Source: Chitinophaga vietnamensis (lineage in GTDB: Bacteria; Bacteroidota; Bacteroidia; Chitinophagales; Chitinophagaceae). Taken from it: DNA of 64,000 bases. The notes under the pieces were generated by a model. The model made no database searches and was not told the origin of the DNA. It was given only the letters and a program-made list of their open reading frames with translations. Each line of letters begins with the position of its first letter. The stretch's first letter is position 1. The position numbers and the translations under genes are program-made. Location of the stretch: assembly GCF_902167635.1 (NCBI RefSeq), contig NZ_CABHMS010000010.1, positions 170,449 through 234,448 on the forward strand, given 5' to 3'. Shown here piece after piece: positions 33,455-50,044 of the stretch.

Positions 33455-33625
33455 CGATAAGCAGGTGTGTGCTGTTGGCGCAGGGGGAGGGAAATGAGGG
33501 ATTTTAAGGGTATTTTAAGCCGTCCTGTTATGAATCTCTTGAAAATCCCCCGCTATTAAATTCTGACAATTAATATTAAATTTACCCCTGCCGCAGCAGG
33601 AGGGAGTGCTGTGGGCATTACAGGG

Positions 33626-34204
33626 ATGAATGAACAGGAACTACTACAACAACTAGCCCTCGGCAACCGCGAGGCGTTTACGACTGTATATCAGCAATAC
33701 CACAGCGGTATCTATAACTATCTGCTCAAATTCACCAAGAACCCCGTATTAACGGAAGACCTGGTGCATGACGTTTTCCTGAAGATATGGGAGATCAGGG
33801 CGCAGCTGGAAATCAGGACTTCTTTCGCCGCCTACCTGTACCGGCTGGCGCGTAATACAGCGCTCACGCAGCTGAACCGCATCTCCCTGTTCGATACCAT
33901 CCGCGATGAAGTGATGCACCGCATCTCCCTCGATGCCAGCGATCAGTCGCTCATGAATGCTGTAGAGGCCAGGCAATACGAAGAGCTGCTGCACAAGGCC
34001 ATCAACCACCTGCCGCCGCAGCGCCGCGAAGCGTTTATCCTCTGCCGCCAGCAGGGAAGGAGCTACGAAGAGGCCGCAGCTATCATGAACATCTCCCGTA
34101 ATACTTTCAAACAACACCTGTCGCTCGCCGTTAAATCGATCCGCGAATACCTGCTCGAACATGGTAATATCTCTCTGTTGATCCTGCTGGTATCGCTGAA
34201 ATAA
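33626..34204 (+). CDS. ECF RNA polymerase sigma factor (SusCD-type regulator)
   Basis: A 192-residue ECF sigma factor: region 2 (FTTVYQQYHSGIYNYLLKFT, LTEDLVHDVFLKIWE) and region 4 (LPPQRREAFILCRQQGRSYE, AAAIMNISRNTFKQHLSLA). ATG 33626 is chosen; a GTG at 33611 is less likely. It is followed by a FecR gene (63 bp) and then a SusC gene whose product carries an STN signalling domain, the classic trans-envelope switch in which substrate binding outside frees this sigma factor. Confidence 0.93.
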   Translation: MNEQELLQQLALGNREAFTTVYQQYHSGIYNYLLKFTKNPVLTEDLVHDVFLKIWEIRAQLEIRTSFAAYLYRLARNTALTQLNRISLFDTIRDEVMHRISLDASDQSLMNAVEARQYEELLHKAINHLPPQRREAFILCRQQGRSYEEAAAIMNISRNTFKQHLSLAVKSIREYLLEHGNISLLILLVSLK

Positions 34205-34267: not shown

Positions 34268-35419
34268 ATGGAGCCAAAAAATTTTCCTGTTGCTGACTTG
34301 CTTCAAAAGTATCTGGACGGTACCATTACCGATGGAGAAGGAGAAGTATTGTTTGCATGGCTGAAGGAAAATCCTGTAGGGGAAGATACAGACCTGGAAC
34401 CCTTGCTGGAAGCGGCCTACCGCCGTTCTTTCGGGGAGCCTCCGGCGCTTTCGCCGGCTGCCAGTGCACGCATCCTCAACAGGTTGATGGAGAGTACAGC
34501 TGCTCCTGTTGTGTCGCTGCGCCGGCCCTGGCGCCGCTATGCCGCCGCTGTGGCCTTGTTGCTGGCCGCTGCGGGCGCCACATTTTTATGGCTGCGCCAT
34601 CCGAAAGAAAAGCCGCTGGCAGGTATCGCCGCCACGGTGAAACAAGGCAACCATGCAATGCTCACACTGGCCAATGGCCGTGAGATACAACTGGATAGCG
34701 CCCATGGTAATATCATACAAAGCGGCGGATTACAAGTGAACAATAACAGCGGTGAGCTGGATTATAATGGTAAGGCTGGTAGCACGGAATACCACACCCT
34801 TACCACGCCTCCCGGCGGCCAATACAAACTGCTCCTGCCTGATGGCACGGCAGCATGGCTCAATGCAGGCTCCAGCATCACCTTCCCGACCGCCTTCAAT
34901 GGAAAATACCGCCAGGTGAAAATGACCGGCGAAGTTTATTTTGATGTGAAACAACAGGCCAACAACCCGTTTATGGTAGACATAGACGGCAAAGCCGCAG
35001 TAGAAGTGTTAGGTACGGTATTTAACGTCAACGCCTATACGGACGAACCAACCATCCGTACCACCTTGCTGCAGGGCAGCGTGAAGATGACGCATCAGGG
35101 CAATTCCGCAGTGCTGCGGCCCGGACAACAGGCTGTGATCAGCCGCCACCAGCTGCAAATAGCCGATAACACCGATACCGAAATGGCCGTCGCCTGGAAA
35201 GATGGACTGTTCCGCTTCGATCACACACCGCTCGATGAAGTGCTGCGACAGCTGGCACGCTGGTACAACGTAGAGATCGTGTATGAACAAGGCGTACCAC
35301 ACATCGCTTTCAGCGGCGAAATTAAAAGAAACCTCGACCTTCCGCAGACTCTCACCGTGCTAGGCACCATGGGCGTACATTGCAAGGTCGATGGCAGAAA
35401 ACTGATCATTATGCCATAA
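34268..35419 (+). CDS. FecR-type anti-sigma factor
   Basis: A 383-residue protein. The cytosolic N-terminus (about 1-88) should hold the sigma factor; a membrane helix (about 90-110, AAAVALLLAAAGATFLWL) follows; the periplasmic FecR domain shows GGQYKLLLPDGTAAWLNAGS, VKMTGEVYFDVKQ and VLGTVFNVNAY; the last ~70 residues form the STN-like domain (FDHTPLDEVLRQLARWYNVE). It pairs with the sigma gene upstream and the STN domain of the SusC protein downstream. Confidence 0.94.
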   Translation: MEPKNFPVADLLQKYLDGTITDGEGEVLFAWLKENPVGEDTDLEPLLEAAYRRSFGEPPALSPAASARILNRLMESTAAPVVSLRRPWRRYAAAVALLLAAAGATFLWLRHPKEKPLAGIAATVKQGNHAMLTLANGREIQLDSAHGNIIQSGGLQVNNNSGELDYNGKAGSTEYHTLTTPPGGQYKLLLPDGTAAWLNAGSSITFPTAFNGKYRQVKMTGEVYFDVKQQANNPFMVDIDGKAAVEVLGTVFNVNAYTDEPTIRTTLLQGSVKMTHQGNSAVLRPGQQAVISRHQLQIADNTDTEMAVAWKDGLFRFDHTPLDEVLRQLARWYNVEIVYEQGVPHIAFSGEIKRNLDLPQTLTVLGTMGVHCKVDGRKLIIMP

Positions 35420-35512
35420 TATATTCCGCCCGTCATGTGATTACGCGAACAAAGCTGGAAAGCTATAGGCGGAGCTTTGTCCTGACAAAAACAAATTATT
35501 TAATCAACCAGA

Positions 35513-38500
35513 ATGATGATGAATCCAGCATCGAGTTTTAAAAAGTTGAGCGTAGTGCTGCTGATGGCCTTCTGCCTCGGAATATCCGCGATGGCAGGGG
35601 CGCAGACGATCACGTACAACAGCAAGAAAGTATCGCTGCAACAGGTATTTGCAGAGATCAAGAAACAGACAAACTATACCGTGATCTTTAATCCGGAACA
35701 AATAGATGTCACTGTAACTATTCCAGTCAATGCCAAAAAACAGCCATTAGAAGCGTTCCTCAGGAGCGCCCTGTCCGGCATGCCGGTGAGCTATACCATC
35801 GTAGGCACCACCATTGTCGTATTCCGGAAAACAGGCAATCAGCCGGAAGCTGCGCCCGACAACAAAGCGCCCACGCGCGATGTTTCGGGCGTGGTGTCCG
35901 ATGAAAGGACCAATACGCCCGTCATCGCGGTGAACGTAGTGGTCAACGGTACCAGCAAAGGCGCACAGACCGACGAGAAAGGATTTTTTACTTTGAAGAA
36001 AGTGAACGATGATGATATCGCCATCTTCACCTGCATCGGCTATCAGAAATTATCCATCCCCGTATCCAGGCTGCTGAGTAATTTCAACGTGAAGATGAAA
36101 GCCGCTACCAGCGAGCTGGATCAGGCCGTGGTACAGGCTTACGGCATCACCAGCAAACGCCTCGCTACCGGCAACATCACCAAAGTAACGGCTGCCGAAA
36201 TCGAAAGGCAGCCCGTGCTCAACCCGCTGCTGGCGCTGCAAGGCCATGCGCCGGGCCTGCTGATCACGCAGATGAGCGGCTATGCCAACGCGCCGGTGAA
36301 AGTAGAGATCAGGGGCCGTAACTCACTGGGCACAAACTTCGTGGGCGATCCGCTTTATGTGATCGACGGCGTGCCGCTGACAGTACTGGACCTTCCCAAC
36401 ACCTATCGCGCCAACGGCGTATCCGGCGGCTATGCGCAGGGCATCTCCGCCACCGGCGGTCAAAGCCCGCTGTTCAGCATGAACCCGCGCGATATCGAAA
36501 GCATCGAAATACTGAAAGATGCCGACGCCACCGCTATTTACGGCTCCCGCGCCGCCAATGGCGTGATCCTCATCACCACTAAAAAAGGTAAGCCAGGTAA
36601 AACAAATTTCTCGCTCGATATCAACCAGGGATATATCGATGTGCCACACCGCCGCCAGATGCTCAACACACAGCAGTACCTGCAAATGCGCCGTGAGGCC
36701 TTCAAGAACGATGGTATCACGCCTACCGCCGCCAATGCGCCCGACCTGATGGTATGGGATACCACCCGTTATACCGACTGGCAAAAAGTATTGCTGGGCA
36801 CCGGCAGTCAAACAACGGTTAATACCAGCCTTTCCGGTGGCGATGCCAACAACACTTTCCGTATCAGCGGTAACTATGGCCGGCAGGTGGATGTGCTCAG
36901 CAAAGGCGGCGCCAGCCAGCAAGCCACCCTGAGCGCCAACATCGGCCACCGCAGCAGGAACCAGAAGCTATCTGTTTCACTGGGTACCACCTACGCCTAT
37001 ACGAATGTAGATGCGATCTCTATGCCCACCAGCACCTTCATGCTGCCGCCCAATGCGCCAGGCATCTATAACAAGAAAGGAGAGCTCAACTGGGAGGAAT
37101 GGAATGCTAGTAACAATGGCGATCTCTTTCCCTTCAGCGGCCTCTTACAGAATAATGTTATCCAGACCAACCAGTTCAGCAGCCATTTAGGCATCAGCTA
37201 TGAACTGCTGAAAGGATTGACCATATCTACCAGTGCCGGCTATACGAATATGCAGGGCTCCAGCGATTTTTATACGCCTATTGCCTCACAGAATCCGCTA
37301 CTCAATCCTGTCGGCACTGCTTATTTCAGTACTACCAAAAACACCAACTGGATCATCGAACCGCAAGTGGCCTATAGCCGTTTGATTGGAAAAGGCGACC
37401 TGAAAATACAGGTGGGCGGCTCGCTGCAATCCGCCATCACAGATGGTATCAGAACGATAGGCAGCGGTTATACCGATGATAACCTCCTGCATAGTATCAA
37501 TAATGCATCTTTCCAGATGACATCGGAAGACAATGCCCACTACAAATATGCAGGGGTATTTAGCCGTATCAACTACAACTGGAAAGATAAATATATCCTG
37601 AACCTGAACGCCAGAAGGGACGGCTCTTCACGCTTTGCGCCGGGCAGGCAGTTCGGTAACTTCGGCTCTGTGGGTCTCGCCTGGAATGCTTCTGAAGAAC
37701 CCTGGATGAAAAAACTGTTGCCTTCATGGATCAGCTTCGTGAAACTCCGCACCAGCTATGGTATCACGGGAGGCGATGCTTCCATTGGCGACTATCAATA
37801 CCTCTCACAATGGGGCAGCGGCATGCCGGGCTACGGATTGTTCTCCTATGGCGGAATACGGCCGCTCATGCCGATACATGCCGTGAACCAGCAATACCAG
37901 TGGGAGTCTAACAAAAAATATGAAGGAGCGCTGAGCATCAGCTTCCTCAACGATCGCATCAACGTTGAAGGCGCTTATTACAGATACAGATCCGGTAACC
38001 AGGTAACGGGCATCCCTACACCGATTTACACCGGCTTTCCATCAGTAGTGGGCAACTGGAATGCCGTGATCGAAAACACCGGATGGGAGGCAGATATACG
38101 CGCACGACTGATCGAGAAAAAAGATCTCCGTTGGTCCGTCAACTTCAATATCTCTACCAATAAAAACCGCCTGGTATCTTATCCGGGTATTGAGCAATCG
38201 CCCGACTACACCACTTACCAGGTGGGCCGCTCGCTCAGCACCGTGTACCTGCTGCATTACCTCGGGGTAGATCCGCAAACAGGACGTTATGCATTTGAAG
38301 ACCGTAACAAGGATGGCCGCATCAATGTGAACAACAGCGTGCGGCCGGGTACAGCTGACGATGATCGCTACATCATCATGGATACCAATCCGAAATTTTA
38401 TGGCGGCTTCAGCACGGACCTCACCTATAAAAGCTGGAGCCTCAGCCTGTTCTTCGATTACAAACGGCAGATAGGGCTGAACCCCTACATAGTAGTGCCG

Positions 38501-38845
38501 GGCAGCCTCACTAACCTGCCCATAGACGCATTGAAAGATCATTGGCAGAAGCCGGGCGATATCGCCACTTATCCGGGCTATTCCACTCACCTCGGCACTT
38601 CCATCGGCAGCTCGGATGCGCAGTATGTCAATGCATCTTACCTGCGCCTGCGCACCGTTACATTGAGCTATAGCTTGTCGGACAAACTGGTGCAGCAAGC
38701 GCACATGACAGCCTGCCGCGCTTTCATCAGAACACAGAATGTGTTCACCATCACCAACTATCCCGGTATCGATCCCGAGGTACAGGACCTTTCCAGCGTT
38801 CCGCCATCCAGGACTATCAGCGGCGGCTTATCCTTCAACTTTTAA
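35513..38845 (+). CDS. SusC/RagA-type TonB-dependent outer membrane transporter
   Basis: A 1110-residue protein: signal peptide ending AMAGAQ (about 31), STN domain (about 35-105, VSLQQVFAEIKKQTNYTVIF), carboxypeptidase-regulatory-like domain (about 127-200, SGVVSDERTNTPVIAVNVVV), plug (about 215-325, with VEIRGRNSLG and PLYVIDGVPL) and a 22-strand barrel ending in LSFNF. It imports a ligand with energy from TonB. The substrate is not evident: no glycan enzyme is encoded next to it, and the downstream genes are ABC, MutS-like and protease genes. It is the first of eight tightly packed genes. Confidence 0.95.
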   Translation: MMMNPASSFKKLSVVLLMAFCLGISAMAGAQTITYNSKKVSLQQVFAEIKKQTNYTVIFNPEQIDVTVTIPVNAKKQPLEAFLRSALSGMPVSYTIVGTTIVVFRKTGNQPEAAPDNKAPTRDVSGVVSDERTNTPVIAVNVVVNGTSKGAQTDEKGFFTLKKVNDDDIAIFTCIGYQKLSIPVSRLLSNFNVKMKAATSELDQAVVQAYGITSKRLATGNITKVTAAEIERQPVLNPLLALQGHAPGLLITQMSGYANAPVKVEIRGRNSLGTNFVGDPLYVIDGVPLTVLDLPNTYRANGVSGGYAQGISATGGQSPLFSMNPRDIESIEILKDADATAIYGSRAANGVILITTKKGKPGKTNFSLDINQGYIDVPHRRQMLNTQQYLQMRREAFKNDGITPTAANAPDLMVWDTTRYTDWQKVLLGTGSQTTVNTSLSGGDANNTFRISGNYGRQVDVLSKGGASQQATLSANIGHRSRNQKLSVSLGTTYAYTNVDAISMPTSTFMLPPNAPGIYNKKGELNWEEWNASNNGDLFPFSGLLQNNVIQTNQFSSHLGISYELLKGLTISTSAGYTNMQGSSDFYTPIASQNPLLNPVGTAYFSTTKNTNWIIEPQVAYSRLIGKGDLKIQVGGSLQSAITDGIRTIGSGYTDDNLLHSINNASFQMTSEDNAHYKYAGVFSRINYNWKDKYILNLNARRDGSSRFAPGRQFGNFGSVGLAWNASEEPWMKKLLPSWISFVKLRTSYGITGGDASIGDYQYLSQWGSGMPGYGLFSYGGIRPLMPIHAVNQQYQWESNKKYEGALSISFLNDRINVEGAYYRYRSGNQVTGIPTPIYTGFPSVVGNWNAVIENTGWEADIRARLIEKKDLRWSVNFNISTNKNRLVSYPGIEQSPDYTTYQVGRSLSTVYLLHYLGVDPQTGRYAFEDRNKDGRINVNNSVRPGTADDDRYIIMDTNPKFYGGFSTDLTYKSWSLSLFFDYKRQIGLNPYIVVPGSLTNLPIDALKDHWQKPGDIATYPGYSTHLGTSIGSSDAQYVNASYLRLRTVTLSYSLSDKLVQQAHMTACRAFIRTQNVFTITNYPGIDPEVQDLSSVPPSRTISGGLSFNF

Positions 38846-38849
38846 ACCG

Positions 38850-40349
38850 ATGATCATGCAGAGATATCAGAGAAATATTGTAATGGCTGCCAGCTGCCTC
38901 CTGTTGGGCATCTTCGGCGCCTGCAAAAAACTGGTGACCGTGCCCGACCCGATCAATACCATTTCAACCGGGCAGGTGTTCAGTACAGAGAAACAGGCCA
39001 ACAGTGCCATGGTGAGCATTTACAGCCGTATGATCAACGGAGATAACCCGATGGCAACGGGCATAGGCAGAAGTAACTTTGCTGCCGGCCTCTCCACCAT
39101 TCTTGGTGGCTTGTCGTCGGATGAATTGTATAACTACCGCGGAACACAGGAGCAATCCTATTACGCGCTCGCCAGCAACAAGCTCACGATCTATAACAGC
39201 ACCGTCGCCTGGGGCGCCTGGGGGAGCGCTTACAATGCCATCTACACCGCCAATTCCATCATTGAAGGGATTGCCGGTTCAAAATCAGCTATGCTCAAAG
39301 ATAGTGCACGCAAAGCTTTGACGGGAGAGGCAAAATTTGTGCGCGCCTTTTCTTATTTCTATCTCGTGAATTTTTTCGGCGATGTACCGCTGGCGCTGAC
39401 GGCAGATTTTAACCAGACCGCACACCTGTCGCGCGCCCCGCAGGCACAGGTGTATCAGCAGATCTTGCAGGACCTGCAAGATGCGGTGGCCAACATGCCG
39501 GCCGCATATCCTACCACCAACAATGAAAGGACAAGGCCCAACAAATTTGCCGCTGCCGCCTTGTTGGCAAGAGTGTACCTGTACATGGGCGATTATGCCA
39601 ATGCGGCGGCCACGGCCACTACGGTGATCAATAACGCTGCCGACTATACGCTGGAGAATGATCTTAACAACGTATTCCTCACCGGCAGCAGGGAAGCCAT
39701 CTGGCAGCTGTCGCAGTCCTCGCACGACTTCTCCAGCAAAAATGCTACGCCGGAAGGTTACGAACTGTTGCCTTTGAACAGGCGTGTCGCCAGTGCGCCT
39801 TTCTGCCTTACGCCCGCGCTGCTGGCGGCTTTCGAGCCAGGCGACCAACGCCTGAAAAAATGGATCGACAGCACCGACAACTCTTATGGCAATGCCGGTA
39901 GTGCCGGTATCACCTATTATCCCGCGAAGTACAAAGTAGGAAGTGATAATGGCATGGCTGGCATGCCGCCAACAGAATATTACGTAGTGCTGCGCCTGGC
40001 AGAGGTATACCTCATCCGCGCAGAAGCCGCTGCCAACGGCGGTCCTGGCGGCAGCGCCACCGCTATCGCTGATCTCAACATGATCCGCAACAGGGCCGGC
40101 CTGCCATCGCTGCCGGCTACGCTCGGCAAAGAGCAGCTGCTGGCAGCTGTAGCCAAAGAGCGGCAGATAGAGCTGTTCGCAGAATGGGGCCACCGCTGGC
40201 TGGACCTGAAACGTACCAAACGGATGCACGACGTGCTCTCCGCAATACCGCTCAAGCAGCCATGGATCGGCGATTACCAGGCATTATACCCGATACCGGT
40301 AACAGAGATCACTACCAACCATTTCCTCATTCAAAATCCGGGTTACTAA
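38850..40349 (+). CDS. SusD/RagB-type surface lipoprotein
   Basis: A 499-residue lipoprotein: signal peptide with lipobox GIFGAC, SusD N-terminal region (VPDPINTISTGQVFSTEKQA), TPR-like helices (GEAKFVRAFSYFYLVNFFGD, the usual RAxxYFxLVxxFGDVP phrase), and the C-terminal RagB domain (EVYLIRAEAAANGG, ERQIELFAEWGHRWLDLKR), ending in QNPGY as is typical. It caps the SusC channel and binds ligand outside. ATG 38850 lies 4 bp after the SusC stop; longer in-frame starts overlap SusC and lack a signal peptide. Confidence 0.95.
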   Translation: MIMQRYQRNIVMAASCLLLGIFGACKKLVTVPDPINTISTGQVFSTEKQANSAMVSIYSRMINGDNPMATGIGRSNFAAGLSTILGGLSSDELYNYRGTQEQSYYALASNKLTIYNSTVAWGAWGSAYNAIYTANSIIEGIAGSKSAMLKDSARKALTGEAKFVRAFSYFYLVNFFGDVPLALTADFNQTAHLSRAPQAQVYQQILQDLQDAVANMPAAYPTTNNERTRPNKFAAAALLARVYLYMGDYANAAATATTVINNAADYTLENDLNNVFLTGSREAIWQLSQSSHDFSSKNATPEGYELLPLNRRVASAPFCLTPALLAAFEPGDQRLKKWIDSTDNSYGNAGSAGITYYPAKYKVGSDNGMAGMPPTEYYVVLRLAEVYLIRAEAAANGGPGGSATAIADLNMIRNRAGLPSLPATLGKEQLLAAVAKERQIELFAEWGHRWLDLKRTKRMHDVLSAIPLKQPWIGDYQALYPIPVTEITTNHFLIQNPGY

Positions 40350-40350
40350 A

Positions 40351-41097
40351 ATGAAACGATATAATTTCGTATACGCGTTACTGTTATCATGCCTGTTAGC
40401 CGCCTGTGGCAAGGAATCCACTCCGCCTTCCGGTACCGCTTCACTCAATATCGTGAATGCGGTAGTAGGCAGCAGCCAGCTGGCGCCCAACTTCAGCGGC
40501 AGTGCCTCTTATGACTTTTACCGCGTGCTGCTGGCGGAATATGGCCACTACATTGCTAATTCCAGTCATTACAGTTCTTTCCGCGGCGAGCAGCCACTAT
40601 GGATATACAACTATCCCGATACTACCAGCAAAGACCAGCCCCTGCTCAAACTGCAACTGCACATGCCCGTAGGTTCCATGCAAACACTGTTTGTAACCGG
40701 CACCCTGGCCAAGCCGGACAGTCTGCTCACGCAAGATCAGCTGCCCTATCATGCATTGAGCGACAGTACCACCGGAATCAGGTTCGTGAACCTTTCACCT
40801 GGCAGTCAGCCGATAAAAGTAGTGATGCGCGGCAAGAGCAGCCCGGAAGTGGCCAGCATGGCCTATAAAACAGCTAGCGGTTTTATCGCCTATCCATTTA
40901 AAAGCGGCAACAAAAACTTTGTGTTCGAGTTCCGCGATGCCGCTTCAGATGCATTGATCGCCACTTATACCGTCAGCGACGTACCTGATCCGATAGACCC
41001 AGTCAACTGGCCCAATCAGAACGTAACGCTGGCGCTGATAGGAGCGCCGGGCCAGAGCGGCGCCTGGGCGCAGAAAGTGATGCCTATACAATATTGA
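40351..41097 (+). CDS. DUF4397-like lipoprotein
   Basis: A 248-residue lipoprotein: signal peptide with lipobox LLAAC, then ASLNIVNAVVGSSQ, a later GIRFVNLSPGSQPIKVVM and FVFEFRDAASDALIAT, in line with DUF4397-type beta domains that often follow SusCD pairs. Its start is one base after the SusD stop. It is probably a surface accessory to the SusCD complex. The role is inferred from position. Confidence 0.8.
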   Translation: MKRYNFVYALLLSCLLAACGKESTPPSGTASLNIVNAVVGSSQLAPNFSGSASYDFYRVLLAEYGHYIANSSHYSSFRGEQPLWIYNYPDTTSKDQPLLKLQLHMPVGSMQTLFVTGTLAKPDSLLTQDQLPYHALSDSTTGIRFVNLSPGSQPIKVVMRGKSSPEVASMAYKTASGFIAYPFKSGNKNFVFEFRDAASDALIATYTVSDVPDPIDPVNWPNQNVTLALIGAPGQSGAWAQKVMPIQY

Positions 41098-41109
41098 TAA
41101 AAACTAGCA

Positions 41110-42036
41110 ATGAGTACGATACTGAAAATTGAGCGGCTCTCGCACCGCTATAGCAGTGCCTGGGCGATACGCGATATCAACCTGGAGATCAGCCAGACGG
41201 GCGTGGTAGGACTGCTCGGCTCCAACGGCGCCGGCAAATCCACCACCATGAACATCCTTTGCGGTGTGCTGAATCCCACAGAGGGCGAAGTGTGGGTGAA
41301 CGGCATCAACCTGAGAGAACAGCCGGAAGAAGCCAAGAAAGCCATTGGCTTTCTCCCGCAAAACCCGCCGGTATATACCGACCTCACCGTAGATGAATAT
41401 CTCATCTATTGCGCACAATTGCGCAGGATAGAGAAAAGCAGGATTAAAAAATCGGTGGAAGATGCCAAAGAACGCTGTGGCATCGCGCATTTCAGCACCC
41501 GCCTGATACGTAACCTCTCCGGCGGCTACCGCCAGCGTGTAGGCATTGCGCAGGCCATCATCCACCAGCCGCGCCTTGTAGTGATGGACGAGCCCACCAA
41601 CGGCCTCGATCCCAATCAGCTCATCGAAGCGAGGAAACTGATCCGCGAAATAGGACAGGACCATACCGTATTGCTTTCTTCCCATATCCTCTCCGAAGTG
41701 CACCTGCTCTGCCGGGAAGTAGTGATGATCGAAGGCGGCCGCGTGATCTTCTCCGATACCATGGATGCCTTTAACAACTACGTACAGCCGCATAGCGTAC
41801 TAACGCATATGGAGAATCCTCCTTCCGCCACGGAACTGATGAAGATCCCCGGGGCCACCAAAGTAGAATTTCTGAGCGACCGCCAGATAAGGATCTACTT
41901 TGATGGCGACCAGGACATTACTGAAAGGATCGTGAACGCCAGCGTACAACAAGGCTGGCGGCTGCGGGAGATCAACCTCGATAAAGGCCTGCTGGACGAT
42001 ATTTTCAAGCAATTATCCATTCAATCTCTCCAATAA
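41110..42036 (+). CDS. ABC transporter ATPase (GldA-like)
   Basis: A 308-residue ATPase with Walker A LLGSNGAGKSTT (Gly37 to Thr), Q-loop LPQNPPVY, signature LSGGYRQRVGIAQA, Walker B LVVMDEPTNGLD and H-loop LLSSHILSEV. The C-terminal extension after about residue 220 resembles that of GldA, the ATPase of the gliding-associated ABC system. It lies 9 bp before the fused permease gene, its evident partner. It may be a GldA paralogue used here for export rather than for gliding. Confidence 0.92.
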   Translation: MSTILKIERLSHRYSSAWAIRDINLEISQTGVVGLLGSNGAGKSTTMNILCGVLNPTEGEVWVNGINLREQPEEAKKAIGFLPQNPPVYTDLTVDEYLIYCAQLRRIEKSRIKKSVEDAKERCGIAHFSTRLIRNLSGGYRQRVGIAQAIIHQPRLVVMDEPTNGLDPNQLIEARKLIREIGQDHTVLLSSHILSEVHLLCREVVMIEGGRVIFSDTMDAFNNYVQPHSVLTHMENPPSATELMKIPGATKVEFLSDRQIRIYFDGDQDITERIVNASVQQGWRLREINLDKGLLDDIFKQLSIQSLQ

Positions 42037-42045
42037 TATTCTTAC

Positions 42046-44367
42046 ATGAAGATGATATTCAAGATCGCGAGAACAGAATTGCGTAACCTCTTCTATTCTC
42101 CGGTAGCGTGGTTTTTAACGATTGCTTTTATGGTGCAATGCGCCGTATATTATACAGGCGCACTGTATCCGATGGCCAAATGGCAGGAGGTATTGCAGCA
42201 AAATTCGCCAGCCTTCAAGGACTTTGGCATCTCTATCACCAACGGCGTATTCCTGGCGGGAGATGGTATTTTCTCCAATGTATTGCAGAATCTCTACCTC
42301 TTCGTACCACTGCTCACCATGGGCCTGATCAGCCGCGAGATCAATAACGGCACCATCAAACTATTGTATTCCTCTCCCGTAAAAATCCGTGAGATCGTAC
42401 TGGGCAAATATCTGGCCATCATGATCTACAACCTGCTGCTGCTGGGGATCGTAGGCGTTTTCATCGTTACGGGAATTATCAATATCCAACATGCAGATTA
42501 TGGCGTGTTGCTGTCAGCCTCACTGGGCTTCTATCTGCTCGTATGCGCCTATACTGCCATCGGTTTGTTCATGTCCAGCCTCACCACTTATCAGATTGTA
42601 TCAGCTATCGGCAGCTTCATCATCATCTTTGTGCTGAGCCGCATTGGTGGCCTCTGGCAGAAGTATGACTTTGTAAGGGACCTGACCTATTTCCTGTCGC
42701 TCTCCGGCCGCACCACCAAAATGCTGAAGGGGCTGATCACCACGAAAGATGTCATCTACTTCATCGTGATCGTGTACATGTTTGTTGGTTTCACGCTGAT
42801 CAAACTGAAGGCCGGCCGTGAATCCAGGCCCTGGTATGTAAAGGCCGCACGGTATGTGGCCATTGCGGCAACCGCGCTGGTGATCGGCTATTGCAGCTCC
42901 AGGCCGGGATACATCGGCTACTGGGATACTACCGCGGCCAACAGTAACACCCTGCATCCCCATACGCAGGAGATCATCCGGGAGATGAAGGGAGCGCCAT
43001 TGGAGATAACGCTCTACTGCAATCTCTTCGGAGGCGGCGTGGCGCGCGGCTTACCGGAGAACCGCAATGATTACCTGTGGAACCTGTGGGAGCCCTACCT
43101 GCGTTTCAAACCGGATGTGACATTCAACTACGTGTATTATTATGATGTAGACGATAACGATCATTCGCTTTACCAGGCATGGGGCGGCAAGCCGCCGAAA
43201 GAGATCGCGGAAAAGATGTGCGAAGGATACGATATCAAACCATCGCTGTTTGTGCCTGGCACAGCAGTGCGCAAAACGATCAATCTGCAGCCGGAAAACT
43301 ACCGCCTGGTGATGCAATTGAAATACAAAGGCAAAACCACTTTCCTCCGCACCTTCGATGATGCGGTGTTCTGGCCCGAAGAAGAGCAGGTGGCCGCGGC
43401 TTTCAAACGCCTGCTGCAACCAACGATGCCGAAAAACCTCTTCCTCACCGGAAATCTTGAACGTGATATTTACAAGAAGGGAGAGCGGGAATATAATTAT
43501 CATTCTATAGCGAAAGATAACCGCTATGCCCTGATCAATATGGGCTTTGATTCCGACACACTTTCTGCCACTGCGCAGGATATCCCGGATGATATTGCCA
43601 CCCTGGTGCTGGCCGATCCGAAAACCGCGCTGGACGCCAGTACGATGGACAAGTTGCAACGTTATATCAACAAAGGCGGCAACATGCTCATACTCGGCGA
43701 GCCCGGCAAACAACAGATGCTCAACCCCCTGCTGCAACAGTTGGGCGTGCATATGAAAGATGGCACTTTGATAGAGCTGTCTAAAGATGAGATGCCGCAT
43801 ATGGTGAAGCCCTTCCTTACCCGGCAGGCTTGCGATCTGGCACAGGATCCGGTATTGCAACTGGCAAAAGAAGACCCCGGCAGCGGCATGAGCATGCTGA
43901 TGCCTGGCGTTACCGCTTTGGAGTGGTCTAACGGTAGCGGCTATACGGTATCTCCTTTGCTCGTTACGGGCACTAACAAAGACTGGCTGAAAGCCGGTAC
44001 CCTGGTTACTGATTCTGTGCCGCCGGTGTTCAGTCCTGCCGAAGGCGATACCCGCGCTGCCAGCTATACTACCGCCATCTCGCTTTCCCGTGTTGTGAAC
44101 AAGAAGGAGCAGCGTATCATCATCAGCGCAGATGCAGATTTTATGAGTAACATGAGGCAGGGCGGCAGTTTCCTGAGCCGTGCGTTCTACTCCTGGCTCG
44201 ACTACAACAAATTCCCGATCTATACGCCCAAAGTAAGGGCCAGGGATACTTTGCTGACTATCGGCACCACCGGCGCGGGCATCCTGAAAATCGTATATGT
44301 GTGGGTGTTACCCGGGCTGGTATTGCTCACAGGAACCGTATTACTGATCAGGCGAAAAAGAAAATAA
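42046..44367 (+). CDS. Fused ABC permease and GldG-like auxiliary protein
   Basis: A 773-residue protein. Residues 1-250 form an ABC-2 type permease with about six helices (AWFLTIAFMVQCAVYYTG, KIREIVLGKYLAIMIYNLLL), equivalent to GldF. From about residue 265 there is a new membrane helix and a large periplasmic ABC-auxiliary domain as in GldG (HTQEIIREMKGAPLEITLYC, LINMGFDSDTLSATAQDIPD, YINKGGNMLILGEPGKQQML), closed by a C-terminal helix and RRKRK. GldF and GldG are separate proteins in gliding bacteria; here they are one chain. It probably works with the ATPase upstream. Confidence 0.87.
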   Translation: MKMIFKIARTELRNLFYSPVAWFLTIAFMVQCAVYYTGALYPMAKWQEVLQQNSPAFKDFGISITNGVFLAGDGIFSNVLQNLYLFVPLLTMGLISREINNGTIKLLYSSPVKIREIVLGKYLAIMIYNLLLLGIVGVFIVTGIINIQHADYGVLLSASLGFYLLVCAYTAIGLFMSSLTTYQIVSAIGSFIIIFVLSRIGGLWQKYDFVRDLTYFLSLSGRTTKMLKGLITTKDVIYFIVIVYMFVGFTLIKLKAGRESRPWYVKAARYVAIAATALVIGYCSSRPGYIGYWDTTAANSNTLHPHTQEIIREMKGAPLEITLYCNLFGGGVARGLPENRNDYLWNLWEPYLRFKPDVTFNYVYYYDVDDNDHSLYQAWGGKPPKEIAEKMCEGYDIKPSLFVPGTAVRKTINLQPENYRLVMQLKYKGKTTFLRTFDDAVFWPEEEQVAAAFKRLLQPTMPKNLFLTGNLERDIYKKGEREYNYHSIAKDNRYALINMGFDSDTLSATAQDIPDDIATLVLADPKTALDASTMDKLQRYINKGGNMLILGEPGKQQMLNPLLQQLGVHMKDGTLIELSKDEMPHMVKPFLTRQACDLAQDPVLQLAKEDPGSGMSMLMPGVTALEWSNGSGYTVSPLLVTGTNKDWLKAGTLVTDSVPPVFSPAEGDTRAASYTTAISLSRVVNKKEQRIIISADADFMSNMRQGGSFLSRAFYSWLDYNKFPIYTPKVRARDTLLTIGTTGAGILKIVYVWVLPGLVLLTGTVLLIRRKRK

Positions 44368-44372
44368 AACTG

Positions 44373-45686
44373 ATGAACATGATCTTGCATACAGATGACC
44401 AGACCATAGAAGACCTCCGGATATTCGGAAAGCGCGATAGCAGCGGCATCTACGACCTGTATAACCAAACCCGCACCCGTGGCGGCGAGGCGATACTGGG
44501 AGATATGTTCCGCCGCCCTTTGTCGGACCGGGAGGAGATCAACCGTAGAAGCAGCATCATTGAGCACTTTGCGCGGCAGCAGCTGAGCTTCCCTTTCAAT
44601 GCCTCGCTCTTCGATATGGCAGAAAAGTACCTCGCTAACGCGGACGCACAAACGAAGAATGCCACCCGAAATGCGATGCTGAGCGAAAAGGATGTAAACA
44701 ACGGCGTATCCGCCGTGATAGCGCTGATCCAGCAGGTGGCGGCCTTTATTCAGCAGGATGCCGTAAAAAGCATTGCCGCCTATGCCCGTGAAAGGCAGGA
44801 TATCGCCTGGCTGCTGGGCGATCCGGCATTGGAGCCGGTACGCCAGGAAACAGGCAAAGGCAAGCTGTCGTACGCCGCGGTAACGGCTTTCGACCTGCTG
44901 TTCCGCACCCGCGAACGCAGCAGGATAGAAAAGCTGTTGCAGCATGTGTATTACCTCGATGTGTACCTCTCGGTTGCGAAAGTGGCCAACGAACAACAGT
45001 TCGTGTTTCCCAAAGCACTAGAAAAAGGCCATGACCTGCTGCTGCTGGAGGGCGTATATCATCCCGGCCTGAAAAACGCTGTGGGCAACGATATCCGGCT
45101 GCATACAGCCGAACATGTGATCTTCCTCACCGGCGCAAATATGGCGGGTAAATCCACCTTCCTGCGCTCCCTGAGCACGGCCGTATACCTGGCGCATATG
45201 GGATTTCCGGTAGCGGCCAGGCGCATGGAGTTCGTAGTGCTGGATGGCATCTACACTACTATCAACCTGCCCGATAACCTCGGCATGGGCGCCAGCCATT
45301 TTTATGCAGAGGTATTGAGGGTGAAGAAGATCGCAGCGGAGCTGAACGCCGGCAAATCGCTGCTCGTGATCTTCGACGAACTTTTTCGCGGCACCAATGT
45401 AAAAGACGCGCATGAGGCCACCGTGGCCATTACCGGCGCTTTCACACGGAAGAAAGACAGTCTCTTTATCATCTCCTCCCATATTGTGGAGGCGGGTGAA
45501 GACCTTCAGCAATATCCCGGCGCCGGCTTCCTTTACCTGCCCACCCGCATGAAAGGACATATGCCGGAATATACGTATAGGCTTGAACGTGGTATCACGG
45601 ACGACCGTCATGGTATGATCATCATCCGCAATGAAGGCATCCTCGATATCCTGAAAAACGGCCGCAAACGCGCACAGGAACAATAA
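44373..45686 (+). CDS. MutS-like ATPase 1, no mismatch-recognition domain
   Basis: A 437-residue protein that starts with the MutS core (domain III: DLRIFGKRDSSGIYDLYNQT, then RGGEAILGDMFRRPLSDREE) and continues to the ATPase domain: Walker A GANMAGKST (from residue 254), ASHFYAEVLRVKKIAAEL, Walker B LLVIFDELFRGTN and the ISSHIVEAG switch. The MutS domains I and II and a Smr endonuclease domain are absent, so a standard mismatch repair role is unlikely. The start is ATG 44373, 5 bp after the permease gene; an upstream TTG/ATG overlap would lie inside that gene. Confidence 0.9.
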   Translation: MNMILHTDDQTIEDLRIFGKRDSSGIYDLYNQTRTRGGEAILGDMFRRPLSDREEINRRSSIIEHFARQQLSFPFNASLFDMAEKYLANADAQTKNATRNAMLSEKDVNNGVSAVIALIQQVAAFIQQDAVKSIAAYARERQDIAWLLGDPALEPVRQETGKGKLSYAAVTAFDLLFRTRERSRIEKLLQHVYYLDVYLSVAKVANEQQFVFPKALEKGHDLLLLEGVYHPGLKNAVGNDIRLHTAEHVIFLTGANMAGKSTFLRSLSTAVYLAHMGFPVAARRMEFVVLDGIYTTINLPDNLGMGASHFYAEVLRVKKIAAELNAGKSLLVIFDELFRGTNVKDAHEATVAITGAFTRKKDSLFIISSHIVEAGEDLQQYPGAGFLYLPTRMKGHMPEYTYRLERGITDDRHGMIIIRNEGILDILKNGRKRAQEQ

Positions 45687-45695
45687 AAGAACTTT

Positions 45696-47012
45696 ATGAG
45701 CTTCAATATCGACAAACAGACCGTAGATGAACTGAACCTGATGGGTAAATACCGGAACGGTTCTGTATACCACCTGTTCAACCAGGTGAAGACGAGGGGA
45801 GGAGAGCAATTGCTGGACGATATGTTCCGCCATCCGCTCGAAGATGATACCGCTATCAACGAGCGTGCCGCCATTTTCCGTTCCTTCCAGCAGGCGAAGC
45901 TGGCCTTTCCTTTCGATGTATCGCAGCTGCACCTGATGCGTGAATACCTCGATGGCGGCGCTCAGCGCAGCGCTGCCGTGATCATGATAGACATGCTGAT
46001 CAAAAAAGGACTGGCTACCCTCACCCGCGATGAAAGATACCGCCGCGCCGTGCAGGGCTTACAAGCTACCATCGTAACGCTGAAACGCTGCCACCTGTTT
46101 TTACAAACGCTGCAACCTGCTACCAGTATGCATGCAGCGCGCATCGCGCTGATCAGGGGTATACTGGCAGACAGCCAGGTGGACAAGCTCATGAACATAG
46201 ATATCTACCAGCCGCTCTCTGTGAGCACGATGGCTTCCTATGATCATCTGCTGAAAGGACCGCTGCGGGAGGCGATGGAGCAGGTATTGACATTCATCTA
46301 CGAACTGGATGTGAACATCGCGGTGAGCGATGTGGCGCGCGAGAAAAAATTCGCTTATGCATCAGCGCTGCCGAAAGGAAAGAATATCTTATCGCTGACC
46401 TCAATGCGTCATCCTTGTCTGCAGGGCGCTGTAGGCAATGATGTTATTATGCAGGAAAACAGCAACGTGCTTTTTCTCACCGGTGCTAATATGGCTGGTA
46501 AATCCACGCTGATGAAGTCTGTAGGCATCTCCATGTATCTCGCTCATATGGGATTCCCTGTGGCAGCAGATGCCATGACCTTCTCCGTAAGGGAAGGCAT
46601 CTATTCTTCCATCAACGTGGCTGATAATATTCATCTCGGCTACAGCCATTTCTATGCAGAGGTGGTGCGCGTGAAACAGGCCGCAGAAGCGGCTGCTAGC
46701 GGCAATCGCCTCCTGCTGATGTTTGATGAACTGTTCAAAGGTACCAATGTGAAAGATGCTTATGATGGCACATTGGCTGTTACATCTGCCTTTGCCGAAT
46801 ACCAGGACTGTCTCTTTATCGTATCCACGCACATCATTGAAGTAGGAGAGGCATTGAAAGGCCATCACAATATCCGCTTTGCGTTCCTGCCTACCGTGAT
46901 GGAAGGCACAAGGCCGCGTTATACCTACCGCTTGCAGGAAGGTATTACGGAAGACAGGCAAGGGATGATGATCATCCGTAACGAAGGCATCCTGGAGCTG
47001 ATCGGTTCCTGA
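45696..47012 (+). CDS. MutS-like ATPase 2, paralogue of the preceding gene
   Basis: A 438-residue protein clearly homologous to the previous one over its full length (NLMGKYRNGSVYHLFNQVKT, RGGEQLLDDMFRHPLEDD, Walker A GANMAGKST from residue 263, SHFYAEVVRVKQAAEA, LLMFDELFKGTNVKDA, VSTHIIEVGEAL). As in its neighbour, the mismatch-binding and connector domains are missing. MutS proteins act as dimers, so the pair could form a heterodimer. It starts 9 bp after gene 1. Confidence 0.9.
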   Translation: MSFNIDKQTVDELNLMGKYRNGSVYHLFNQVKTRGGEQLLDDMFRHPLEDDTAINERAAIFRSFQQAKLAFPFDVSQLHLMREYLDGGAQRSAAVIMIDMLIKKGLATLTRDERYRRAVQGLQATIVTLKRCHLFLQTLQPATSMHAARIALIRGILADSQVDKLMNIDIYQPLSVSTMASYDHLLKGPLREAMEQVLTFIYELDVNIAVSDVAREKKFAYASALPKGKNILSLTSMRHPCLQGAVGNDVIMQENSNVLFLTGANMAGKSTLMKSVGISMYLAHMGFPVAADAMTFSVREGIYSSINVADNIHLGYSHFYAEVVRVKQAAEAAASGNRLLLMFDELFKGTNVKDAYDGTLAVTSAFAEYQDCLFIVSTHIIEVGEALKGHHNIRFAFLPTVMEGTRPRYTYRLQEGITEDRQGMMIIRNEGILELIGS

Positions 47013-47041
47013 CGTTTTTTAAAATTTCAAAAACTAACCAC

Positions 47042-48517
47042 ATGAAGAGATGGATGATTTCCGGCGCCGCCGCCCTGCTCGCGCTTTGCAGCATGCGGGT
47101 TTCGGCGCAGGAGAAAAAATTAGCTAATCTGACCAGGGAAGATTTTATTGCAGACTTCAAACTCGCGGTAGAGATATTGAAGCAGCAGCATCCGAATCCG
47201 TACAAGTTCATCGACTCCGTTACCTTTCAACGCAAGGTGGATTCGCTGATGACAAAAGCGGCCACAGCGCCCGATGTGCTTTCCTGTCTGCAATATTCTC
47301 CTGTTTATCTCGTGAGAGATGTACATACCAGTTTGAGTGTGAGCAACGACAATGCGAAAGAGTTGTACAGTATGATCAACTTTTTCCCGTTTCCGGTGGT
47401 GATAGAGCGTGGCAAGATACTCATCAACATCAAGGGAGGCAGCATTCCTTTTGGTGCGGAAGTGATCAGTATCAACGGTGTGCCGGCGAAAGACCTGTTG
47501 CAGGCATTGTCTACGCCCGCTTACAGCGATGGTTACATCACCAGCGGTATGGACCGCCTCTATCCGAATTTCCAGGTGATGTATAGTTTGTTGTCGCCGC
47601 ATCAATCATCTTACCAGGTTAGTTATCTGATGCCGGGCAGTAAGGAAACAAAGAAAGTAACGCTGCCTTTTGCAGATCCTACTGCGGCCTTCCATGCCAG
47701 CAAGATGGCGGTATTCCCGGTAAACCTCTTGCAGCGCGCCTATTACATCTATAATAACTATTACGATGATACGAAAACAGGCGTGCTAACCGTCAATACC
47801 TTTGCCATCAACGAATCGGATGCTTATAAAGAGTTCAGCGAATTTTTCCGGGAGGTGAACAGGCGGCAATACAAACAGGTGGTGATCGATGTACGCAGCA
47901 ATGGTGGCGGTAATCCGGCTATCTCGGCGCTGCTGTATTCCTTCCTTACGGATGCACCATTCCGCAATGTCTATAATTACCGCACCCGCACCATCGGTAT
48001 TGCTTTCCCTGAATATGCGGTAGCTGACAACGGCAGAAGATTATCTGACGAAGACCTGCAAAGCCAGAGGAATTTCCTTTATCAGCGTTTCGACCGCGAT
48101 AGCAGCGGTTTCTACGTAGGCAATGCCCGTCTGCGTGATGGTCTGCTCGAAAATTTCCCGCCGGATAAAGATGCTTTTCATGGCAAGGTATATGTGCTCA
48201 CCGGTGGTGGAACCGTATCCGCCGCTACTTATTTTGCATCCCTGGTGCAGAAGAACAAACGCGGGCTGGTGATTGGCAAGGAAACGGGTAGTGGCGCGGC
48301 TGCTACTACGGCAGCATGGTTCATGAAATACCTGCTGCCACGTACGAAATCTGTGCTAAATGTACCGATGTCGGAATTGTATTTCTTTAATGCCGCCACC
48401 GATGAAGGCCATGGCATTATGCCGGATAAAGAGGTGCCGATGGATAAATTTGTTTCGTATATACAGGCAGGTAAGGATCCCGAACTAAGCTACACCCTTG
48501 AATATTTGGTTATTTGA
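47042..48517 (+). CDS. S41 family serine peptidase, secreted
   Basis: A 491-residue protein with a signal peptide (MISGAAALLALCSMRVSAQ), an N-terminal helical domain, a PDZ-like part (PFGAEVISINGVPAKDLLQA) and the S41 core: VVIDVRSNGGGNPAISALLY, YVLTGGGTVSAATYFASLV with the nucleophile Ser393, and GKETGSGAAATTAAWF. C-terminal-processing-type proteases of this family cut peptides in the periplasm. It ends the operon that starts with SusC, 29 bp after the second MutS-like gene, and the stop codon lies in the arm of a long terminator palindrome. Confidence 0.9.
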   Translation: MKRWMISGAAALLALCSMRVSAQEKKLANLTREDFIADFKLAVEILKQQHPNPYKFIDSVTFQRKVDSLMTKAATAPDVLSCLQYSPVYLVRDVHTSLSVSNDNAKELYSMINFFPFPVVIERGKILINIKGGSIPFGAEVISINGVPAKDLLQALSTPAYSDGYITSGMDRLYPNFQVMYSLLSPHQSSYQVSYLMPGSKETKKVTLPFADPTAAFHASKMAVFPVNLLQRAYYIYNNYYDDTKTGVLTVNTFAINESDAYKEFSEFFREVNRRQYKQVVIDVRSNGGGNPAISALLYSFLTDAPFRNVYNYRTRTIGIAFPEYAVADNGRRLSDEDLQSQRNFLYQRFDRDSSGFYVGNARLRDGLLENFPPDKDAFHGKVYVLTGGGTVSAATYFASLVQKNKRGLVIGKETGSGAAATTAAWFMKYLLPRTKSVLNVPMSELYFFNAATDEGHGIMPDKEVPMDKFVSYIQAGKDPELSYTLEYLVI

Positions 48518-48593
48518 TTATTTGTTTATTTAAATATTTAGCCCCCGCAGCATGCTACGGGGGCTAAATATTTAAATAAACAAATAATCAAAT
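48512..48593. terminator. 82-bp near-perfect palindrome, bidirectional terminator
   Basis: Arms 48512-48547 and 48558-48593 are exact reverse complements over 36 bp (atttgattatttgtttattt...gcccccg), and the 10-base loop is itself mostly self-complementary. The left arm starts in the last codon of the S41 gene (ATT TGA); the right arm reaches the first base of the stop of the convergent LamG gene. The GC base with AT-rich flanks fits termination in both directions. Confidence 0.85.
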
Positions 48594-50044
48594 TAGTTGC
48601 CGTAGTTGTACAGCTGCTGTACCTCGTTAGCGGTGATCTGTCTGCCATAGATACGTACTTCTTCCATGGCGCCTTTCAGGAAGTAGCCATTGGTAGGAGA
48701 AGTGATCTCATCGCGGCCGAGGTACATTTTAACTGTAGCTGGCGCGTTGGCAGGCAGTATGCCGGAAGTAACGTTGTCGAGCACACCATCGACGTAGAAG
48801 GAAACCTGCTGAAATGCATAGCTGTAGATGCAGGTAACCATGTGCCAGCCATTGAGACCAATTATTTTGGTGCCGAAAGCATTGGGATCATTGCCACCGG
48901 GGCCGAAGCCTGCTACGGCATAAGGAGAAGCGGCATAACCTCTAACGGCATAGCAGAAGCCACCAGGTCCGTTGTCACGTTTGGTAAGGATTTCGGAGCC
49001 ATAAGAGGCGTTGTAGTCGTCCAGTTTCACCCAGGCATTCAGTGTGAAATCGGTATTGGTGAGGCGAAGGTCGGCAGAATCATTTACTGCGATAAAGCTG
49101 CTGCTGCCATTGAAATAGGAAGCGCCATTTGTTTTACCGCGGCTGTCCGTTGTATAGGAGATGCTGGTAGCTACGCCATTGTGGTTGTTGCCGGAGATAT
49201 CGGTGGCGCCTCTGGCGCCGTCCAGCGGCCAGTAAGCGATCAGGCCATTGTTCAGCGTATTTGGATTGTAGAGGTTCTGTATTTCAGCGGCGCTGAGTGC
49301 CCTGTTATAGATGCGGATATCATTCAGTGCGCCTTGCAGGAAATAGCCGTTGGTAGGCGAAGTAACTTCATCACGGCCGATGTACAGTTTGGCGGTGGCG
49401 GGTGCATTAGCGGGCAATATGCCGGTGGTAACGTTATCCAGTACGCCGTCTACATACAAAGTAATTTTCTGTTGCGCTAGGTTGTACACGGTGGTGGTCA
49501 TGTGCCAGGCGCCGGTGGTAACGGTTTTGGAGCCGAATGCGTTCGGATCGTTACCGCCAGGGCCGAAACCTATTACGCCATAAGGATTGGCGGCATAACC
49601 TCTGATCGAGTAGCAGTAGCCACCAGGCCCGTTGTCGCGCTTGGTGACGATTTCAGAGCCATAAGATGAGTTGTATGAATCCAGTTTCACCCATGCGTTG
49701 ATGGTAAAATCGGTATTCGTTAAACGCAGGTCTGCCTGATCATCTACGGAAATATAGCTGCTGCTTCCGTTGAAGTAGAACGCGCCATTTTTGGTGCCGA
49801 ACCTGTCCGTGGTGAAGCCGGTATTATACGCAACACCGTGGTGGAAGTGGCCGGAGCGGTCGTTGGCATAGGAGAGGCTGTCCAGCGGCCACCAGGCGAT
49901 CAGGCCTGCGGTATCGCTGAGCAGTTCAGTATGCGCTTTGGGAGCCATGGCAGGCTCGTTGATCGCTGTTTTCGAGCAGGAAAACAGGGCTGCCATTGTT
50001 AAGCCGCAGAGGCTAACATTCTTCAGGATTTGTGTTGCTTTCAT
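48593..50044 (-). CDS. Lipoprotein with two LamG-like domains
   Basis: A 483-residue protein with a lipobox (AALFSC) and two tandem concanavalin A/LamG-type domains of about 210 residues that are strongly alike (GLIAWWPLDSLSYANDRSGH and GLIAYWPLDGARGATDISGN; FYFNGSSSYISVDDQADLRL and SYFNGSSSFIAVNDSADLRL; both end in GYFL.GA....RIYxR). Such domains bind carbohydrates or other ligands at the surface. The high similarity of the two halves suggests an internal duplication. It converges with the S41 gene across the palindromic terminator. Confidence 0.88.
   Translation of the reverse strand: MKATQILKNVSLCGLTMAALFSCSKTAINEPAMAPKAHTELLSDTAGLIAWWPLDSLSYANDRSGHFHHGVAYNTGFTTDRFGTKNGAFYFNGSSSYISVDDQADLRLTNTDFTINAWVKLDSYNSSYGSEIVTKRDNGPGGYCYSIRGYAANPYGVIGFGPGGNDPNAFGSKTVTTGAWHMTTTVYNLAQQKITLYVDGVLDNVTTGILPANAPATAKLYIGRDEVTSPTNGYFLQGALNDIRIYNRALSAAEIQNLYNPNTLNNGLIAYWPLDGARGATDISGNNHNGVATSISYTTDSRGKTNGASYFNGSSSFIAVNDSADLRLTNTDFTLNAWVKLDDYNASYGSEILTKRDNGPGGFCYAVRGYAASPYAVAGFGPGGNDPNAFGTKIIGLNGWHMVTCIYSYAFQQVSFYVDGVLDNVTSGILPANAPATVKMYLGRDEITSPTNGYFLKGAMEEVRIYGRQITANEVQQLYNYGN

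Follow-up and report, generated by a model that had tools for sequence, protein, structure and literature searches.

A conserved GldFG-type ABC complex and a MutS-like ATPase pair in SusCD operons of Chitinophaga vietnamensis and its relatives

In a stretch of 64,000 nucleotides from Chitinophaga vietnamensis (contig NZ_CABHMS010000010.1, positions 170,449 to 234,448; genome of 6.3 Mb, labelled G000), hereafter called the window, eight same-strand (+) genes running from a SusC transporter to an S41 peptidase bring together a SusC/SusD receptor pair (SusCD), an ATP-binding cassette (ABC) complex resembling the gliding proteins GldA, GldF and GldG, and two paralogous MutS-like ATPases designated MutA and MutB (together MutAB). 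The original prediction had proposed this putative operon as a candidate new system, and the gene set proved real and recurrent, being found again in many genera. It is read here, tentatively and with somewhat less than even confidence, as a SusCD receptor lineage that diverges fast and is equipped with a conserved envelope engine of two ATPases, namely a NosFY-like ABC complex and a cytosolic MutAB heterodimer. No earlier description of a set joining SusC, MutS-like and GldG-type genes was found in the literature searched, which was mostly without subscription papers.

The operon and its recurrence in relatives

Domains were called from the scores of Pfam and NCBIfam models against the cut-offs of those models, and gave the following features.

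33611..34204 (+), extracytoplasmic function (ECF) sigma factor: TIGR02985 130.7 bits vs 126.4; Sigma70_r2/r4_2; GTG start, in-frame ATG at 33626 possible
34268..35419 (+), FecR anti-sigma: FecR 57.1 and FecR_C 62.2 bits; one hydrophobic stretch by hydropathy, residues 91-109
35513..38845 (+), SusC/RagA TonB-linked transporter: TIGR04056 672.6 vs 368.25 and TIGR04057 66.4 vs 46.2 bits; N-terminal STN domain 42.4 bits, residues 55-106
38850..40349 (+), SusD lipoprotein: SusD_RagB 100.7 vs 23.1 and SusD-like_3 101.7 vs 27 bits; lipobox by eye; the longest open reading frame (ORF) starts at 38739
40351..41097 (+), putative surface lipoprotein: DUF4397 36.2 vs 30.6 bits; lipobox by eye
41110..42036 (+), GldA-like ABC ATPase: ABC_tran 115.3 bits; best NCBIfam match GldA, 261.4 bits, under the cut-off of 402.6
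42046..44367 (+), GldF-GldG fusion (GldFG): ABC-2/NosY-like membrane half, large periplasmic part with a predicted GIFT fold, C-terminal transmembrane segment
44373..45686 (+), MutA, MutS-like ATPase with domains III and V only: MutS_V 94.2 and MutS_III 38.2 bits
45696..47012 (+), MutB, paralogous MutS-like ATPase, 43% identical to MutA: MutS_V 90.7 bits; MutS_III 29.3 bits, under the cut-off of 34.1
47042..48517 (+), S41 peptidase (accessory): Peptidase_S41 80.4 bits; N-terminal signal sequence by eye, hydropathy scan flagging no stretch
48518..48587 (no strand assigned), hairpin with 30-base-pair (bp) arms, read as a terminator: -42.7 kcal/mol, z -11, 0/200 shuffles as good

All eight genes from SusC to S41 are present as first described, with gaps of exactly 4, 1, 12, 9, 5, 9 and 29 bp when SusD is taken to start at 38850 and MutA at 44373. 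The sigma and FecR genes lie immediately 5' of SusC, and the TIGR02985, FecR and STN matches bear out the claim of an ECF sigma/FecR pair upstream of an STN-bearing SusC. The "GldAFG-like" label held for the ATPase and needed refinement for the remainder, since GldF and GldG form a single protein. These features (a SusC with STN, SusD, sigma/FecR, with the curated models matched) are shared with SusCD/RagAB TonB-dependent loci, from which the operon differs by its inner-membrane ABC complex and MutS-like ATPases. Pfam recognised no carbohydrate-active enzyme among the eight window proteins, and the operon does not qualify as a polysaccharide utilisation locus.

Related loci (L numbers are locus labels and G numbers genome labels) were found solely by the MutA/MutB pair, in one scan (best 80 of at least 563 confirmed). 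The GldA-like ATPase and the GldF-GldG fusion share an operon with MutAB in 79/79 judgeable loci, L060 beginning at a contig end and hence not being judgeable for the engine, and they stand upstream of MutAB in 74/80. Five loci (L084, L086, L093, L094, L101) show a permuted order, with MutAB ahead of sigma-FecR-SusC-SusD-DUF4843-PKD2-ABC-GldFG, which longer pieces of these contigs bore out (L159, L160, L147, L162, L161); in L055, two peptidase-like genes intervene between ABC/GldFG and MutAB. SusD is within the operon in 76/80 loci, that is, 76/78 after setting aside the contig-end cuts L060 and L070, the exceptions being L048, with none, and L049, with SusCD downstream only and in another arrangement. 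SusC accompanies SusD in 74 of these 76 loci, its expected position in L074 and L106 falling outside the examined sequence. A stricter same-strand count (ABC 71, GldFG 74, SusD 70 and SusC 69 of 80) is lower because of gene-calling artefacts, permuted loci and cut loci; the greedy gene caller had hidden real genes, through opposite-strand or unlabelled ORFs, in L046, L065, L073, L075, L091 and L098, and these were recovered by scoring every ORF. Median gaps are 11 bp between ABC and GldFG (n=71), 5.5 bp between GldFG and MutA (n=72) and -4 bp between MutA and MutB (n=76).

The set occurs in the Chitinophagaceae and Sphingobacteriaceae, with loci in Chitinophaga, Pseudoflavitalea, Niastella, Niabella, Flavitalea, Pedobacter, Mucilaginibacter and Sphingobacterium; one related operon (L087) belongs to C. 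pinensis. The arrangement is not a product of chance, and the adjacency of MutS-like and SusCD genes, which might have been peculiar to the window, recurs in eight genera. Among 147 genomes of the family, a strong MutA (>320 bits) was present in 15 and GldFG in 16, namely the same 15 plus G138. Searches of the phylum and class, in which no more than 2-5 candidates were scored for each genome, gave MutA in 3 and GldFG in 11 of 392 phylum genomes, all 3 being within the 11, and MutA in 2 of 296 class genomes. The set is multiplied in Pseudoflavitalea rhizosphaerae, whose 36 GldFG genes fall into 27 operons (two of them read under the handle G002, with positions matching G528). SusC and SusD are both present in 26 of these operons and at least one Mut gene in 25, three of the latter being cut by contig ends after or in MutA and one carrying a MutA-MutB fusion.

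The engine, the MutS-like pair and the receptors

The GldF-GldG fusion combines a membrane half of ABC-2 type with an ABC_transp_aux domain of GldG type. In a comparison with the 1000 chains top-ranked by Foldseek, the membrane half of its predicted fold was closest to NosY and the periplasmic half to a GIFT domain, so that the NosY-like membrane fold of a NosFY-type ABC is present. The protein shares this fold with NosDFY(L), a system that transmits motion rather than moving substrate; here, however, the periplasmic part is GIFT-containing instead of NosD, and the operon holds no Nos genes. The relation to the Flavobacterium gliding ABC complex GldA-GldF-GldG is also partial. The best NCBIfam matches are GldA for the ATPase and GldF for the fusion, and the ABC_transp_aux part is common to both systems, but the window proteins fall under the GldA and GldF cut-offs (79.6 bits vs 288.5 for GldF) and the membrane and GldG-type parts are fused. 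Two adjacent ORFs elsewhere in the same genome (L258) match the fusion weakly and are read as ordinary gldF and gldG, for which reason the fusion would be an extra paralogue.

MutA and MutB derive from the MutS DNA-repair family and belong to the MutS ATPase superfamily through a domain V with Walker A and B motifs (MutS_V above cut-off). Walker A and B, searched with motif patterns, are kept in 79/79 MutA and 81/81 MutB. MutS_III and MutS_V were detected in 24/24 MutA and 24/24 MutB scanned, and none of the Pfam mismatch (I), connector (II) and clamp (IV) domains in these 24 + 24 proteins at E<=0.001, each set giving one other match, at chance level. The predicted MutA model has a pLDDT of 84.6 and is matched by MutS structures at a TM score of ~0.7 of the query. 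In a tree of 30 sampled MutA, 30 sampled MutB, 13 single-copy relatives and 7 orphan relatives, the MutA clade had a support of 0.979, the MutB clade of 1.0 and both together of 0.996. The two are fused into single proteins in three loci (L100, 879 amino acids; L142, 861; L173, 898), those of L142 and L173 each showing MutS_V twice and MutS_III twice. MutS1, MutS2 and KamC share with MutAB the ATPase domain V, the lever domain III and the fold; the window pair nevertheless scores far under their models (for MutA and MutB, NF003810 137.1/118.1 bits vs 480 and TIGR01070 106/93.5 vs 641.7 for MutS1; TIGR01069 71.8 and 76 vs 400 for MutS2; NF052383 109.4 and 103.6 vs 300 for KamC), is without DNA-recognition domains and forms a paralogous pair beside an ABC complex. 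Because of the sister clades, the fusions, the kept Walker motifs, the restriction to domains III and V and the low family scores, the most plausible reading of MutAB is an ATPase that works as an obligate heterodimer and does not recognise mismatches.

A link to KamC, prompted by its high NCBIfam rank, was rejected: apart from the low scores, no aminomutase was found among the scanned neighbours of L138 and L146, and a KamC search of 118 genomes gave no match, its control likewise being without match, so that it is uninformative on absence. The single-copy MutS-like proteins of L138 and L146 (479 and 437 amino acids) adjoin dihydroorotase, with a menaquinone methyltransferase gene near, and a PorT/SprT gene lies near that of L138. 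Two further relatives are encoded in the window's genome. One, of 595 amino acids (L005:1462-3249 (-), equivalent to G000:C6 near 83711), has several hydrophobic stretches, is the nearest outside row to MutA/MutB in the tree (0.977), and might be an ATPase of MutS type already located at the membrane. The other, an orphan of 442 amino acids with only MutS_V detected (L139:6186-7511 (+), equivalent to G000:C5:166685-168010), sits between two SusCD loci, one of them divergent, in a stretch holding no ABC genes; its relatives at E<=1e-60 occur in 7/147 family genomes, its own included.

The receptors vary far more than the genes that follow them. With 55 to 79 loci compared per family, ABC has a median identity of 0.68, GldFG of 0.48, MutA of 0.56 and MutB of 0.55, against 0.26 for both SusC and SusD. 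Distances correlate within pairs (SusC-SusD 0.89, ABC-GldFG 0.84, MutA-MutB 0.86). Between Mut and ABC/GldFG the correlation is moderate (0.53-0.69); it is lower between SusCD and Mut (0.23-0.45) and weak between SusCD and ABC/GldFG (0.14-0.37). A first SusC tree set 92 operon SusCs against 6 outside ones, and a second, biased, added the 30 best-scoring SusCs of the window's genome. The third, to which lower-scoring SusCs listed for that genome and others beside them were added, comprised 57 of its SusCs, 6 others, 45/92 sampled operon SusCs and the window's own. The 46 operon SusCs clustered on it, with 4 label changes vs a shuffled mean of 35 (0/500 shuffles as low), although the smallest branch side containing all of them was weakly supported (59) and included 8 other SusCs. 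The identities, the correlations and this clustering therefore point to a largely dedicated receptor lineage that diverged fast, and was probably partly shuffled, around a conserved engine.

A proposed mechanism and its rivals

The usual view of SusCD loci is that they import sugars or peptides, with the later inner-membrane step left open. In the mechanism proposed here, SusD and SusC would capture a ligand, perhaps peptide-like, and pass it to the periplasm. Loaded SusC would then signal through STN to FecR and the ECF sigma factor, following the general scheme of sigma-FecR-STN signalling, and so raise transcription of the operon. Periplasmic accessories might process the cargo (S41 in the window; M16, met-zincin, S9 or TlpA in some relatives). 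The GldA-like ATPase would pair with the GldF-GldG fusion in an ABC complex of the NosFY type, and ATP hydrolysed on the cytosolic side would drive the large periplasmic domain that contains GIFT. That domain may work on either the cargo or the lipoproteins of SusCD, making the complex a mechanical engine rather than a classical exporter. Finally, MutA and MutB, as an obligate cytosolic heterodimer retaining the MutS-type ATP switch without its DNA-reading domains, could gate or assist the ABC complex, a contact proposed solely because of the genetic linkage between the two. In its most specific form (a NosFY-type ABC driving a periplasmic GIFT domain on SusCD cargo or receptors, a MutS-type heterodimer as the ATP switch of membrane transport, and tens of parallel systems in one genome) the proposal is doubtful. 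The coupling of import to an envelope machine, which the original prediction had suggested, is retained as the best reading.

The nature of the cargo was approached through the accessory genes. Over the 80 loci, the slot after SusD holds DUF4397 in 27, c12 in 8, and DUF4843 and PKD_2 in 10 each, and accessory genes in the same run include S41-type peptidases in 16, M16 in 10 and TlpA-like proteins in 13, any of these being present in 34/80. The slot occupied by S41 in the window contains M16, met-zincin, S9, TlpA or nothing in relatives; single scanned relatives carry met-zincins, S9, M1 or a tail-specific protease. The genes thus lean towards a peptide-like cargo, which is possible only. Solved relatives were not decisive in this respect, the nearest SusC chains being a 'SusC homolog' (8aa4) followed by RagA, and no sequence match in the PDB was obtained for the one DUF4843 and one PKD_2 lipoprotein tried.

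Several observations weigh against the proposal. The peptidases that hint at peptides are absent from more than half of the loci. The engine also exists without MutAB, in GldFG runs that mostly retain SusC-SusD-ABC-GldFG, and rarely without SusCD: L151 and L152 (both G035) have no SusC-SusD ahead of ABC, L152 showing outer-membrane barrel genes in their place and a contig end cutting its MutAB side. Among the runs without MutAB, an M16 peptidase occurs in 6/8 of L129-L136 (L132 differing in order) and in none of L148-L154, where an arabinofuranosidase (L148) and a DUF2961 protein (L151) were found. In addition, GldA is reported to be required for the stability of GldJ and GldK (PMC9127263), which backs almost as well a machine of envelope assembly.

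According to this alternative, ABC-GldFG-MutAB would mature, stabilise or turn over the SusD-type lipoproteins of the lineage, much as stable GldJ and GldK depend on GldAFG in gliding, import being independent of the machine. An engine conserved while its receptors vary is what a generic assembly factor would show, and engine and SusCD are indeed linked in 26/27 operons of one genome. However, at least 56 SusC genes stand against one GldFG fusion in the window's genome, so that nearly all of its SusCDs manage without it, and the assembly role is considered unlikely. Less probable still is a sense-and-expel role, in which a toxic natural product resembling a peptide is sensed by SusC, or leaks in through it, to be expelled by an induced ABC-2 transporter and destroyed by peptidases, with MutAB as an accessory ATPase: the GldFG fold is nearer to NosY than to exporters, and the 27 copies found in one genome, with their diverging receptors, would resemble acquisition rather than resistance.

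MutAB could also be a passenger acquired once by a successful operon, with a function unrelated to SusCD and ABC. On a tree of 143 distinct GldFG proteins (122 with and 21 without MutAB, one row left out), a set enriched for MutAB as most loci had been found by it, the MutAB label changes 4 times vs a shuffled mean of 19.9. MutAB was therefore rarely gained or lost, and one acquisition long ago could account for a large part of the linkage. Against this, the short GldFG-MutA and MutA-MutB gaps are retained over wide divergence and MutAB stays in the operon even when gene order is permuted, which makes a passenger very unlikely.

The weakest alternative, a response to imported DNA or phage that was also raised originally, has the MutS ancestry of the ATPase core as its sole support and is highly improbable, given the MutAB proteins with domains III and V only, the lack of any nuclease or other DNA enzyme recognised by Pfam among the eight window proteins, and the lack of a PADLOC match for MutA, MutB and five others of these eight. 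The ABC ATPase gave partial-stretch matches to the PADLOC models mad3 (3e-24), AriA, mad8 and HEC-01A, all ATPase-containing and read as reflecting the shared ATPase core.

If the envelope-engine proposal is true, a MutS-family ATPase would be at work in membrane transport. A SusCD lineage bringing its own ABC engine and MutS-like heterodimer would offer a route into cargo handling between two membranes, and the operon a route to the role of MutS-like proteins without DNA domains. Such genes could meanwhile receive a mismatch-repair MutS label in annotation, despite scores far under those models.

Regulatory sequences and neighbouring genes

Scans of the window for sigma-70 promoters and terminators gave chance-level results only, the FecR-SusC leader folded no better than its shuffles, and no Rfam family reached its gathering score in the window. 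The gap between FecR and SusC contains a block, GGCGGAGCTTTG (window 35450-35482), that is common to L040-L042, L044 and L061 and is possibly a regulatory element. An additional sigma-like gene lies within the operon, between c12 and ABC, in L059, L071, L072, L074 and L186. Past the hairpin that follows the S41 gene in the window, the convergent neighbour (48593-50044, -) encodes a protein with two Laminin_G_3 stretches.

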